Assembly (NCBI RefSeq): GCF_900107195.1
Contig: NZ_FNPB01000012.1
Coordinates: forward strand, 1-64,000
DNA from: Halobellus clavatus
Lineage (GTDB): Archaea; Halobacteriota; Halobacteria; Halobacteriales; Haloferacaceae
Reading direction: 5' to 3'
DNA length: 64,000 bases
Part shown: positions 31,137 through 35,932 of the stretch, piece after piece
How the letters are laid out: every line of letters starts with the position of its first letter
How positions within the stretch are numbered: position 1 is the first letter of the stretch
Notes under the pieces: generated by a model
What the model saw: the letters and a program-made list of their open reading frames with translations, nothing else
What the model was told of the DNA's origin: nothing
The model's database searches: none
Program-made: the position numbers and the translations under genes

Positions 31137-33308
31137 TCAGCGCGTCGAATCCGTCAGTCGTCCGTCGTCGAAGGCGGAGAGTTCCGGTGTGCGACCGTCG
31201 CTGCGCTCTCGCCGAATGCGTTCTCGGTCCCAGCCGAGGGGTGCGAGCACGCTCTCGACCGCTCTGAGGAGTTGGGTTTCGTAGTACGCGGGATCGTACG
31301 AGTCGGGATCCTCGCGAGCGAGCGCGACTCGGTCTCGGGAAGTCTTCTCGTCGTCGACGACGACGTAGGCGACGTCCTGTCCCGGGTGGACGGACAGGTC
31401 CTGTTCGGCCGCCCGTTCGAGTGCGGCCACGTTTTGGGTGTTCTGCGAGTACGCCTCGAGTGGCTTTGCGACCCGGTTCCGCTCGACGAGCCGCTGCGGA
31501 TCGAGGTCGCCTGCATACAGCTTCGAGACGGCTGTGTCGAGTACCGTCAGGACGGCATCCGGATCGCGCGTCTCGGCGAAGCGGTCGATACACGCTCGCT
31601 GTGTCGCTTCCACGAACGCGGGGGTCGATCGCTGCCGTGCCTCGATCCCGCGGATCTTACACTCGTCCCGGCCGGCGACCTTGCCGAAGTACTTCGTCAG
31701 TGCGCCCGCCTGACGCTCTCGCTGCGGGACGAAGGCGACCCACTCGTAGTGCGCTTCGTATTCGAGTCGGATGTCGACGGCGTCCGTGATCGCCCCGGCG
31801 AGCGTTTCGAGGTCCGCCGGTTCGTCGGTCGTCGGATCCGGCGTCACCCAGATCGAATCGACAATGCCGTGCAGGACGCGCCAGCCGCCCGCCTCGAGTC
31901 GCTCTTTCGCCGTCAGGAGGATCTCCCGGGCGTAGGCGTTGATCGCCTCGTGGCACTCGATGCGGCCGAACTTCGCGTTGCTGAAGCCCTGATACCCGAA
32001 GCACGCGACGAGAATCCACTTCAGCGCGTCCGAGCGCCCGCCGAGTTCCCGGAGCCGATCGGCGTCGGGGTCCGCACGCGCCCTCTCACGATCGATCTGG
32101 GCTTTGATCTCGTCGCGGGCGTCGATGATCGGGTTGAGCACGTCGACGAGGTAGCCCCGATCGTCACAGATCGCGTAGTCCAGTTCGGGGACGTCCTCGC
32201 GGTCGCGGTGACAGTCACACCGGATCACGTCCGGCGAGACGTTTCGCGTGCAGATGATGTTCGGATAGAGGCTGGAGAAGTCGAGTTCGTAAACGTCGTC
32301 GTGGACGCCGACGTCGGGCGCGAAGATGAACCCACCGCGGTCCGCATCGTGGAGCGTCCCCATCGGTTTGTAGAACTCGTGACGCCAGGAGTTCCACGGG
32401 ACCAGTACGTCCCGGTCGTGTGCTTCGCGGATCTGGATGGCGGTGAGGACGTTGCCGATCGACGCCCACGCGAGCTCTTGGAGGGGCTTGCGCGACCGCG
32501 AGACGAGATCGAGGACCCCATCGAGGTTCGTCTCTCCGTAGAAGAAGGTGTTCGACTCGTCGATGATCGCCCGACCAGGGACGTTGTATCGGGCCGGAGA
32601 GTGCCCGACACGACCGTAGCTGGCGTACGTAGACCGACTCGCGAGTTGCTGATAGTCGACGTCGGGCCACCGACTCAGGTTGAAGTCCGCGAACCCGGCG
32701 TTCGACGCCATCTCGTACAGCGTCGGGACGACCTGACTACTCGAACAGACGAGGACGTCGGGGTCGCGGCGGTCGATCGCGGCCTGTATCGCCGGCAGAA
32801 TCTCCGTCGGATCGCCCTCGATCCGCCGCTCGTCGAGTGTCACCGCTTCGTAGGGCTCCCCCTCGGTCGCAGTCGCGGGGACGCTCAAGCGGAGCGTGTG
32901 GAGTTCCGCGGCGGGCGTCGGATCGATCCCGGTCTCCAGACAGTATCGGAACTCCGGAGAGAGATCCACGTTGAAACACGCGAGATCGCCGAGTGGGAAC
33001 GCCGGATGCTGCCGTGCTTGCCGCGCGATCGTCGGCACTCGGTCGATGTGTTCGACGTCGACAGCGAGGACGGGCTCGGGATCGCGGCGGAACCCGGGTC
33101 GTCGGGTGACGATCGCTGTCTCGACGACGTCCGGGTGGCGCTCGTAGAACGACTGCAGCGGTGTCAGGTCGGGCGCAGCCGCCGGGTCACGACTGGCGAC
33201 GAAGAATCGGGGGGTGTACGCCGCGTCGACAGTGGCGGTGGCACCGTCTTCAGTCGCGGTCCAGTGCAGAACCCGGCCGTCGTCTAAGAAATCGATCGTG
33301 AACGTCAT
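31137..33308 (-). CDS. polB2: B-family DNA polymerase, PolB2 type, with altered catalytic motifs
   Basis: A 723-residue B-family polymerase of the archaeal PolB2 group. Motif A is intact (YELDFSSLYPNII). Motif B reads ALKWILVACFGYQG, keeping the Lys but lacking the usual Asn-Ser. Motif C reads HGIVDSIWV, so the first Asp of DTD is gone and only the second remains. Exo I keeps Asp-x-Glu (LAVDVEHID), but the Exo II Asn/Asp are missing (CSSSQVVPTLYE), so proofreading is probably lost. PolB2 (Dpo2) in Sulfolobus is damage-inducible and mutagenic. It overlaps the small gene upstream by 4 bases, followed further upstream by a RecA-like gene. Confidence 0.88.
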   Translation of the reverse strand: MTFTIDFLDDGRVLHWTATEDGATATVDAAYTPRFFVASRDPAAAPDLTPLQSFYERHPDVVETAIVTRRPGFRRDPEPVLAVDVEHIDRVPTIARQARQHPAFPLGDLACFNVDLSPEFRYCLETGIDPTPAAELHTLRLSVPATATEGEPYEAVTLDERRIEGDPTEILPAIQAAIDRRDPDVLVCSSSQVVPTLYEMASNAGFADFNLSRWPDVDYQQLASRSTYASYGRVGHSPARYNVPGRAIIDESNTFFYGETNLDGVLDLVSRSRKPLQELAWASIGNVLTAIQIREAHDRDVLVPWNSWRHEFYKPMGTLHDADRGGFIFAPDVGVHDDVYELDFSSLYPNIICTRNVSPDVIRCDCHRDREDVPELDYAICDDRGYLVDVLNPIIDARDEIKAQIDRERARADPDADRLRELGGRSDALKWILVACFGYQGFSNAKFGRIECHEAINAYAREILLTAKERLEAGGWRVLHGIVDSIWVTPDPTTDEPADLETLAGAITDAVDIRLEYEAHYEWVAFVPQRERQAGALTKYFGKVAGRDECKIRGIEARQRSTPAFVEATQRACIDRFAETRDPDAVLTVLDTAVSKLYAGDLDPQRLVERNRVAKPLEAYSQNTQNVAALERAAEQDLSVHPGQDVAYVVVDDEKTSRDRVALAREDPDSYDPAYYETQLLRAVESVLAPLGWDRERIRRERSDGRTPELSAFDDGRLTDSTR

Positions 33309-33613
33309 CCGCCGGCCCCAGCGTCGTCGTCCGGTGCTGACGGCTCGTGTCCGTCTACCGTGGCTTCGAGTTCATCGAGCCGTGCTTCGAGTTCGTCGAG
33401 CCGCCGTTCCTGCTCGAGGTCGACGCTGAGGAGGGCGGGAAAGAGCGGATTCTGATGGTTCAGCAACCCGCTCGCGTCGGCGTGCGCACGGGCGTACGCG
33501 AACAATTGGTCGAACCGGGGGTGGTCGCGGCTCCGGAGCGCTCGCCGGAAGGTCGCCCAGCGGTCCTCGATCGCGCGCAGTGCGTCTCGATACGTCGGGT
33601 TCGTTCGTCCCAT
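33305..33613 (-). CDS. Small coiled-coil protein of the polB2 operon
   Basis: A 102-residue protein starting MGRTNPTYRDALRAIEDRW. The first 70 residues look helical, with many Arg and aromatic residues (FRRALRSRDHPRFDQLFAYA). Residues about 70-90 form a short coiled coil of the pattern LDELEARLDELEATVDG, and the tail is acidic. The gene overlaps polB2 by ATGA and starts next to the RecA-like gene stop, so the three are one transcript. A small adaptor bridging polymerase and RecA-like protein is a reasonable guess, not shown. A longer N-terminal extension is rejected because it would overlap the upstream gene heavily. Confidence 0.7.
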   Translation of the reverse strand: MGRTNPTYRDALRAIEDRWATFRRALRSRDHPRFDQLFAYARAHADASGLLNHQNPLFPALLSVDLEQERRLDELEARLDELEATVDGHEPSAPDDDAGAGG

Positions 33614-33614
33614 C

Positions 33615-34523
33615 CTACCGGCCCCCCGCGTGGGCCGCGTCGATCCACGCATCCTGGAGCGGTGCGGCCGTGAACGAGGTTCGTTCACCCTCCGCGGTGA
33701 CTCCCGATCCGACCGTGACCGCTGGTCGGGACGCTGTGTCGTCCGGGACCGCCTCCAATTCGACCTGTGCGGCGCGGATGCCGAGCAGTTGCCGCCAGTA
33801 GGCGAACGTCGTCTGGAACGACGATCCGCCCCCGACGGGGTAGACGAGCGTCTCGAACGCGTCGCCCACGAACCGCGGCCCGAGACGCGTTTCCGTACAC
33901 GTCAGCTGCTGCGCCGCCGCGGCTTCGATTGCCGCGGAGAACTTGTCGGTGGTGGTCCGCGTCAGCAACACGGGGACGTCGTAGGCCTTCGCGTACGCAG
34001 TCAACCGGGCGAGCGTCCGTGCGTGAAGCGTCGACGCCTGCGGGTCCGAGAGGGTATCCGCATCGCGGTACGGGGCGTCGAGGGCTGGAGCGACGACGAG
34101 CGATGGCGTCGCCGACGGCGCCGCACGAACGGTCCGGTTCACTGCGTCCGAGAGATCACACACCGCGCCGTAGTGCTGATACGGCGTAAAGCCGCGCGCG
34201 ACGTGGATGCGATCGAGCAGTCGCAGACTGGGAGCGATCCGCGCGAGACCGGTCGTCGTCGCGAAGCCCCGGGCGTCGACCCAGAACGCAGGTCCCTCGT
34301 TGAGGAGCAAGTGATCCAAGACGAGCGACTGGAGGACCGGCACCCCGCGCGACTGCTCGATGTCTACGAGGACCAGCCCCTCCTCCAGCGTAGGCAGAAG
34401 CGACGCGTCGGTGGCCGGATCGGCTCGATCCACGAGGTCCTGATTCCGGGCCGCGGCCCGAGTGGGGCGATTGACCCGCATTGCATCTCCGTCAGTCGAC
34501 CCGGTGTGTCGGTGATGAGGCAT
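33615..34523 (-). CDS. RecA/RadA-like protein without Walker A lysine
   Basis: A 302-residue protein with the outline of a RecA-superfamily core. LEEGLVLVDIEQSRGVPVLQ occupies the place of the P-loop strand but has no GK[T/S]. A strand-plus-Asp resembling Walker B appears in PSLVVAPALDAPYRD. VPVLLTRTTTDKFSAAI and FVGDAFETLVYPVG follow in RadA-like order. ATP binding is therefore doubtful. It is the first gene of the unit leading to polB2. A TATA-like element about 29 bases before the ATG favours the MPHHRHTG start and a leaderless mRNA; MRVNRP 14 codons on is an alternative. Confidence 0.7.
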   Translation of the reverse strand: MPHHRHTGSTDGDAMRVNRPTRAAARNQDLVDRADPATDASLLPTLEEGLVLVDIEQSRGVPVLQSLVLDHLLLNEGPAFWVDARGFATTTGLARIAPSLRLLDRIHVARGFTPYQHYGAVCDLSDAVNRTVRAAPSATPSLVVAPALDAPYRDADTLSDPQASTLHARTLARLTAYAKAYDVPVLLTRTTTDKFSAAIEAAAAQQLTCTETRLGPRFVGDAFETLVYPVGGGSSFQTTFAYWRQLLGIRAAQVELEAVPDDTASRPAVTVGSGVTAEGERTSFTAAPLQDAWIDAAHAGGR

Positions 34524-34547: not shown

Positions 34548-34556
34548 GATAAGTAA
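34548..34556 (-). promoter_or_regulatory. TATA-like box of the RecA-like/polB2 operon
   Basis: The minus strand reads TTACTTATC, centred about 29 bases before the MPHHRHTG start codon, a spacing consistent with leaderless transcription. I see no clear damage-response operator next to it. Confidence 0.4.
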
Positions 34557-34839
34557 CGGCGTGCCGTTTCCGAGAACTGCCGGGAAGCGAGTTCGTCTGG
34601 TTCACTGGCCACAGCGTGTCGATACGGCCGCCGATGTCGGTCTTCCGAGGCCGGTTCCGGAATCGCCGACCGTCCTGCGACGGGATCGACCGGCCGGATC
34701 AGCGCGGTCCGTCCGCGGCTCACTCACGAGACGCGCCTGTGAAGCGCTACGTTGGGGTGGATCGGACAGGAGCGGCTGCACTGACGCCTCAGGGCCACCA
34801 CGGGCTGGACGCCGGTTCGGGAACGGCAGGGAGCGGGTG

Positions 34840-35868
34840 TTACTCGGTGGCCGACGTGGCGGGCGAATCGACGACCGAGTACGTTCTGTCGCGACTGGAG
34901 CCCGCGGCTTCGAGCAGATTGTACTGGGTCATCTTCGAGAGGTACGTCCGAACGGTTCGCTGGGTCCGCGGGTCGTCGACGGCGTCGGCATAGCGGTCGT
35001 GAATCTCACCGGGACTCAGCGGGCCGCGTTCACGGAGGACGTCGTAGACCGCGCGTTGGTGCGGGGTGAGCGATTCGAGGCTCTTCTGTCGTATCTGTGC
35101 GCGGCTGTCTTCGGCGGCTTCGAGCAGCATCTCGTCGGTGATCCGATCGGCGTTCTCCCGATCGGCCGTGCTCGCGGCGGTGCGAAGGATCCCGATCGCC
35201 AGGCGGGCGTCCCCCGCGGCGGCGTCAGCGATCCGGTAGAGTTGGTCATCCGTGATGACGCCCTGGTCGATTCCCCACTCGACCCGCGCGTTCAGGATGT
35301 CGAACAGTTGTTCGTTGTGGTATTTGTCCATCCGGACGTGCTCGCTGGAACGGAGCCGACTCACGAGGCGGTCGTCGACGCGTCCGAACAGCGCTTCCTC
35401 GTTGTTCGCGATGCAGATGACGGCGAACTGAGGGATCGTGTGGAGGTGATAGATGAGTCCCGGGTCTTCGAGCTGGTCGGCTTCGTCCAGAATGACGACG
35501 GTCCGCGACTCGTCGTACTGTTGCAGGCGATCGATGAGTTCGTCGTGGGGGGTCGACTGTCGATGGACGTCGATCGTCTGTCCGAGGTCGTCGAGAATCT
35601 GATAGAGGGCCCGGAATCGGGTGTAGTTCTGCCAGCAGTTGACGTAGGTCGCTTCGACGTCGAGTGCTTCCTCTCTGAGCCGTTCGATGACGAACTTCGA
35701 GAGACAGGTCTTGCCGACGCCGCTCGGCCCCGTCACGACGGCGGTGTCCGCGGGCTCTCCGTTGGTGATCGGTTCGAGGACGCTCGAGAGGTGATTCACT
35801 TCGGCGTCGCGATGCTCGACTTCGCGAGGCACGAAACCGGCGCGGAGGACGCGAGCATCACGGATCAT
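34840..35868 (-). CDS. Orc1/Cdc6-family AAA+ protein
   Basis: A 342-residue origin-recognition/helicase-loading paralogue. AVVTGPSGVGKTCLSKFVIE is Walker A, RTVVILDEADQLEDPGLIY is Walker B, and FAVICIANNEEALFGRVDDR holds sensor 1. RIADAAAGDARLAIGILRTA is the sensor-2 helix. A winged helix closes the protein (PHQRAVYDVLRERGPLSPGE to RTVRTYLSKMTQYNLLE). Haloarchaea carry many such paralogues, only some of which work at origins. Its promoter region holds a TATA-like box and a 20-bp perfect palindrome, suggesting self-regulation or an origin element. A decayed paralogue with the same N-terminal motif lies at 40.1-40.6 kb. Confidence 0.9.
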   Translation of the reverse strand: MIRDARVLRAGFVPREVEHRDAEVNHLSSVLEPITNGEPADTAVVTGPSGVGKTCLSKFVIERLREEALDVEATYVNCWQNYTRFRALYQILDDLGQTIDVHRQSTPHDELIDRLQQYDESRTVVILDEADQLEDPGLIYHLHTIPQFAVICIANNEEALFGRVDDRLVSRLRSSEHVRMDKYHNEQLFDILNARVEWGIDQGVITDDQLYRIADAAAGDARLAIGILRTAASTADRENADRITDEMLLEAAEDSRAQIRQKSLESLTPHQRAVYDVLRERGPLSPGEIHDRYADAVDDPRTQRTVRTYLSKMTQYNLLEAAGSSRDRTYSVVDSPATSATE

Positions 35869-35898: not shown

Positions 35899-35906
35899 CT
35901 AAATAC
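35899..35906 (-). promoter_or_regulatory. TATA-like box of the orc gene
   Basis: The minus strand reads GTATTTAG about 34 bases before the orc ATG, consistent with an archaeal box A. Confidence 0.5.
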
Positions 35907-35912
35907 TGACTG

Positions 35913-35932
35913 GGTCGTTTCCGGAAACGACC
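35913..35932. promoter_or_regulatory. 20-bp perfect palindrome in the orc promoter
   Basis: GGTCGTTTCC followed directly by GGAAACGACC makes a perfect 20-bp palindrome immediately upstream of the orc TATA-like box, at the BRE/activator position. The TTTCC-GGAAAC core resembles the dyad of haloarchaeal origin recognition boxes. A related half-site (TTATTTCCGGGAAGG) lies about 60 bases further upstream, and a G-run (CCCGGGGGAATT) about 170 bases upstream. It may be the binding site of the Orc protein encoded next to it, acting as operator, origin element or both. Confidence 0.6.

Follow-up and report, generated by a model that had tools for sequence, protein, structure and literature searches.

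A promoter box shared by the PolB2 mutasome operon and a linked orc1/cdc6-type gene in Halobellus clavatus and other haloarchaea

Introduction

A stretch of 64,000 nucleotides from Halobellus clavatus (contig NZ_FNPB01000012.1, positions 1-64,000; this whole stretch is called the window below) raises the question of how damage-induced mutagenesis is turned on in haloarchaea. Its minus strand carries three tightly packed genes, iRadA, ppb2 and polB2, the last of which encodes a B-family DNA polymerase of the PolB2 group, and an orc1/cdc6-type gene lies directly upstream. An initial annotation, made from the letters alone, read the three genes as an archaeal counterpart of the bacterial ImuA-ImuB system, in which a RecA-like protein and an inactive polymerase recruit a working translesion polymerase. 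The linked orc1/cdc6 gene, which lies outside the interval considered at the time, and the promoter box that it shares with the operon were missed.

Makarova et al. (2014; PMC4104785) have described an operon that combines arCOG07300 and an inactivated RadA and has an arORC2 neighbor, and Timinskas et al. (2025; PMC11791011) have modeled a heteropentamer of one PolB2, one iRadA and three PPB2 subunits with an MGRT arm. The published PolB2 mutasome agrees with the window cassette in the gene order iRadA-PPB2-PolB2, in the lost first Asp and the lost exonuclease of the polymerase, in the ATPase-dead RadA, in the MGRT arm and in the orc1/cdc6 neighbor. The three-gene cassette is the PolB2 mutasome (PolB2-PPB2-iRadA), known in haloarchaea, and so is not new. 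The available part of the 2025 account makes no mention of a shared promoter box or a stand-alone exonuclease. Here we establish the identity of the protein families, the loss of motifs, the linkage of the genes and the distribution of the box. We consider it probable that the mutasome serves extension of DNA past damage and that its expression is controlled by the linked Orc1/Cdc6 protein through the box. The five-site box makes the question of induction directly testable in Haloarcula or Halobacterium.

The Promoter Box

The box spans 24 bp, has the form CGGAARYRRCMC-N8-TTWW and stands upstream of both iRadA and the linked orc1/cdc6 gene. In the window, the box of the iRadA-PPB2-PolB2 operon (CGGAAACGGCACGCCGTTACTTAT, 34549-34572, minus strand) lies 25 bp before the ATG, and that of the orc1/cdc6 gene (CGGAAACGACCCAGTCAGTATTTA) occupies 35900-35923 on the same strand. 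The 24-bp pattern was derived by lining up promoters and was used as a fixed pattern in searches for which the reversed pattern served as the control; a hand-written pattern for tandem GGAA half-sites was dropped, as it missed the window and many loci. The 3.75-Mb whole genome of H. clavatus contained five exact matches, including both boxes of the window, and no match to the reversed control. These five sites belong to two Orc genes (the second on contig C28), two iRadA genes and a displaced PolB2 gene, and a single additional site appeared when one mismatch was allowed. The box is too rare to be explained by a generic haloarchaeal promoter (TATA box and B recognition element, TATA/BRE), which was rejected as its origin. 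The box is single, points toward the gene at a near-constant distance from the ATG and is followed by CCCGGTC or GCCGCGG. It is apparently undescribed, as no published description was found in the literature searched, which was mostly without subscription journals and supplements.

The comparison sample consisted of 145 haloarchaeal genomes of the same order, whose counts are not independent because the sequences are related. These genomes gave 101 matches to the box against five for the reversed pattern, and 86 of the 101 stood at Orc, iRadA or PolB2 genes. A script assigned 80 of them (Orc 42, iRadA 23, PolB2 15) and six were assigned by hand, namely two iRadA boxes (G125 and G106) for which the script had wrongly extrapolated the gene starts, and the Orc boxes of G027, G085, G130 and G040, the last across a contig end. 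The other 15 sites, where genes were named by eye without a profile, comprised one homologue of the in-operon exonuclease (also matched in a protein search), one radical-SAM protein similar to spore photoproduct lyase, four transposase genes and nine more. A position weight matrix was trained on Orc boxes alone, with random segments of the same loci as background and the 99th percentile as the line. It placed 40 of 54 iRadA promoters above that line, mostly 25 bp before the ATG, and detected the iRadA box of the window too. With the same matrix, an upstream box was found in 17 of 18 separated PolB2 copies and in none of about 38 copies directly following PPB2; 14 of the separated copies were labeled as displaced by computation, and the others (L114, L120, L122 and the single exception, L123) by hand. 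Boxes precede orc, iRadA and polB2 on pHMA155 of Haloarcula marismortui, where polB2 is one small gene away from PPB2, and orc and a displaced polB2 on pNRC200 of Halobacterium NRC-1. The linked Orc1/Cdc6 proteins of these two organisms are WP_011222494.1 and VNG_RS10865, respectively.

The PolB2 Polymerase

The polB2 gene (31137-33308, minus strand) encodes a protein of 723 amino acids that scored 1290 bits with NCBIfam NF004418 (cut-off 692). Its motifs were checked in an alignment of 20 haloarchaeal homologues. Motif C reads HG(I/L)VDS, which fits the HxxxD that the PolB2 group has in place of YxDTD; the first Asp is replaced in all 20 sequences, and H480 and the second Asp, D484, are invariant. 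The window itself reads HGIVDSIWV (HGIVD at about 31857-31871, minus strand), and the reduction of motif C to a single Asp, already seen in the initial annotation, recurs in all the homologues aligned, with no intact DxD among the 20. In motif A, D343, S346, Y348 and P349 are kept. The canonical Asn/Ser of motif B is gone, but K430 is invariant, as are K551, R553 and G554 downstream of it. In the family profile aligned to a Pyrococcus polymerase, the DIE of Exo I and the Asn of Exo II are replaced. The earlier reading of a changed motif B and lost Exo II residues was correct. At the C-terminus, a [LIV]xx[FYW] sequence is kept in 20 of 20 homologues though the surrounding tail varies; in the window it is ELSAF (31170-31184, minus strand), a candidate weak clamp-binding motif resembling the PCNA-interacting protein (PIP) type.

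PolB2 has long been called inactive. However, Dpo2 of Sulfolobus islandicus, with the same HxxxD motif, is a biochemically active extender (PMC8764526), and Sulfolobus Dpo2 is damage-inducible and accounts for all targeted mutagenesis in that organism (PMC7390963). The HxxxD motif is common to Dpo2, as described in these papers, and to haloarchaeal PolB2. In Haloferax volcanii, PolB2 is HVO_A0065 (PMC7776575). By analogy with Dpo2, haloarchaeal PolB2, an exonuclease-less polymerase, has probably kept its catalytic activity.

iRadA, PPB2 and the Linked Orc1/Cdc6 Gene

The iRadA gene (33615-34523, minus strand) encodes 302 amino acids with a RadA/Rad51 fold that lacks the Walker A and Walker B residues. 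A sequence profile of the family matched RadA/Rad51 in PDB (E 1.2e-11), and the AlphaFold model (mean pLDDT 75.6, core above 90) had RadA and Rad51 as its best Foldseek matches (E about 4e-11 to RadA). In place of the Walker motifs, the sequence has SRGVPVLQ (Walker A region) and VVAPALD (Walker B position). No P-loop common to the 25 aligned iRadA homologues was found, in agreement with the missing Walker A lysine reported earlier for the RecA-like protein.

The ppb2 gene (33305-33613, minus strand) encodes a small helical protein of 102 amino acids with a C-terminal coiled coil. It begins with MGRTNPTYRD; the start is the MGRT at 33613, and the longer open reading frame to 33688 is an upstream extension. 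MGRT is invariant at the N-terminus of all 22 PPB2 homologues compared, and the protein fits the PPB2 family (arCOG07300), which is marked by a length of about 90 amino acids, the MGRT arm and a position adjoining polB2. The gene overlaps polB2 by 4 bp (ATGA) and is separated from iRadA by 1 bp, and the tight packing of the three genes first noticed in the letters holds. The initial suggestion that the coiled-coil protein is a bridge is likely and agrees with the published PPB2-trimer model (PMC11791011).

Directly upstream of the cassette, the AAA+ gene at 34840-35868 (minus strand) encodes 342 amino acids identified as Orc1/Cdc6 by NCBIfam TIGR02928 (186 bits) and by matches to Orc1/Cdc6 proteins in PDB (E 6.5e-23). 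In most loci fetched, iRadA is preceded on its own strand by an Orc orthologue, often about 80% identical, and the cassettes are often plasmid-borne. PolB2 was found in 92 of the genomes, iRadA in 93, both in 88, one alone in nine and neither in 48 (Fisher p about 1e-27 with the genomes treated as independent, which they are not). Absence of linkage in other haloarchaea had been named as a sign against the initial reading; linkage is instead the rule, and 88 of 145 genomes have both proteins.

Proposed Mechanism and Comparison with Known Systems

In the proposed mechanism, PolB2 would be held by the ATPase-dead RadA paralogue iRadA and a trimer of PPB2, whose MGRT arm would reach into the cleft between PolB2 and iRadA, and the complex would extend DNA past damage. 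Polymerase activity, mutagenesis and the architecture of the complex would be those of the published relatives. The Orc1/Cdc6-type protein would act as a transcription regulator, not a replication initiator, and would control its own gene, iRadA, and polB2 where polB2 has left the operon, via the box at or just upstream of the TATA region. We infer both the binding of Orc to the box and damage as the trigger. Sulfolobus Orc1-2 has been reported to bind a promoter element in its own gene and in other damage-response genes (PMC9738581). The haloarchaeal Orc, for which binding would be presumed, would likewise be an Orc1/Cdc6 protein outside replication initiation whose element stands in its own promoter and in those of damage-response genes. 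In contrast, the Sulfolobus DNA damage-responsive element (DDRE) is the hexanucleotide ANTTTC with a wide regulon, whereas the haloarchaeal box has 24 bp and another sequence and is rarely found outside orc and the mutasome. The box suggests that non-initiator Orc1/Cdc6 damage regulators, so far shown in Sulfolobus, also exist in haloarchaea, where they would recognize another site. The ultraviolet (UV) motif of Halobacterium radA1, TTTCACTTTCA (PMC2556686), is likewise short and located ahead of the TATA box in haloarchaeal repair genes, but its sequence is different. The H. clavatus genome has seven sites of this motif, one before radA and none at the mutasome. More tentatively, and with rather less confidence than we place in the mechanism itself, the locus may be a self-regulating damage switch, in which an Orc paralogue controls almost only itself and the mutasome, with an exonuclease that proofreads in trans in a subset of operons.

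Several points weigh against the proposed mechanism. Besides the relatedness of the genomes counted, nine of the 54 iRadA loci have a close Orc but no recognized box, and ten have a box but no close Orc within the fetched stretch, as compared with 30 that have both and five that have neither. The polymerase activity described in Sulfolobus may fail to carry over to haloarchaea, and polB2 and orc are unmentioned in the two Halobacterium UV studies examined.

Alternative Explanations

The ImuA-ImuB reading shares with the mechanism proposed here that the proteins belong together, that the ATPase site of the RecA-like protein is gone and that damage tolerance is the theme; these points are already in the literature (PMC4104785 and PMC11791011). 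It differs in taking PolB2 to be dead, so that with iRadA and PPB2 it would only recruit another polymerase, for example of the Y family. The ATPase-dead iRadA and the replacement of the first motif C Asp and of motif B residues in all 20 homologues fit this claim, and so does the presence of a Y-family polymerase in nearly every genome. Such a polymerase occurs in 143 of the 145 genomes, whether PolB2 is present or not, and because it is nearly universal its co-occurrence is uninformative on recruitment. Against a dead PolB2 stand the invariant D484, motif A Asp (D343), K430, K551 and R553, which a dead scaffold would not need, and the active Dpo2 with the same HxxxD (PMC8764526), and we regard recruitment by an inactive PolB2 as unlikely. 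The ImuA-ImuB-DnaE2 system does resemble the cassette in pairing a RecA-like protein with a polymerase of altered active site, but ImuB is of the Y family, whereas PolB2 is of the B family, has kept a metal-binding Asp and has an active relative. The E. coli Pol V mutasome (UmuC-UmuD'2-RecA), a parallel drawn in PMC11791011, likewise combines a polymerase, a small oligomeric partner and a RecA-fold partner; it differs in its Y-family polymerase, active RecA and LexA control, and the complexes are not homologous.

Other explanations concern the box. It would be a doubtful but serious alternative that a factor other than the linked Orc reads it, for example a dedicated transcription factor B (TFB) or an unlinked regulator. 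Haloarchaea have many TFBs, the TATA region is where the box sits, and in two operons that have no linked Orc its place is taken by TTTCACTTTCA; on the other hand, the Orc promoter itself is the most frequent site of the box, and the five iRadA promoters with neither box nor close linked Orc (L070, L105, L106, L107 and L109) suggest that box and Orc were lost together. A role of the box in replication, as an origin recognition element or plasmid copy-control site of Orc that would also account for its presence at iRadA and PolB2, is quite improbable. Orc1/Cdc6 proteins do bind origin recognition boxes (ORBs), one published haloarchaeal ORB contains CGGAAAC (PMC3528665) and the cassettes are often on plasmids, but haloarchaeal ORBs are inverted repeats with a G-string (PMC3528665), whereas the box is single, lacks the G-string and keeps its orientation and near-constant distance relative to the ATG. 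A decaying cassette without function is scarcely credible: a third PolB2 copy in H. clavatus is indeed a fragment beside a TnpB gene, but the cassette has intact overlapping reading frames, residues invariant across 20 to 25 homologues and a conserved promoter.

The In-Operon Exonuclease

In a subset of operons, PPB2 is followed by a protein of about 215-220 amino acids with a DIET motif, which belongs to the RNase H-like superfamily (PF13482, E 9e-9). In nearly every genome with a close homologue (at least 63% identity), its gene immediately follows PPB2. The exonuclease lies between PPB2 and PolB2 in L198 (2673-3329, contig C15 of genome G104), L110, L119 and others, and on the G104 contig Orc, iRadA, PPB2, exonuclease and PolB2 are contiguous on one strand. 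This separate DEDD-type exonuclease may proofread in trans for the exonuclease-dead PolB2, which raises the question of whether a separate subunit can give proofreading to a polymerase without its own proofreading site.

Additional Copies and Neighboring Genes

The H. clavatus genome has a second mutasome set on contig C16 (141470-179328), where PolB2 is about 35 kb from iRadA-PPB2-exonuclease. Both halves of this split set keep the box, and an extra PPB2-like fragment without MGRT is present. The third PolB2 copy, on contig C29 (L007, 5877-7914), is a C-terminal fragment, and TTTCACTTTCA, the radA-type UV motif, precedes the adjoining TnpB gene by about 45 bp. TnpB genes occur near PolB2 in about 13 loci. 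On contig C21 (L197, 116503-118762), a more distant Orc (46% identity) stands head to head with an exonuclease paralogue. In the iRadA operons L106 and L107 (genomes G014 and G113), which have no linked Orc, the UV motif known from Halobacterium radA1 replaces the box, as if control had been swapped. The four transposase genes with an upstream box (L172, L173, L174 and L177) include two of identical sequence, and damage-linked transposition is possible at these sites. A gene for an SOS response-associated peptidase (SRAP) stands behind orc on the opposite strand in about 17 loci, including L071, L075, L085, pHMA155 and pNRC200.

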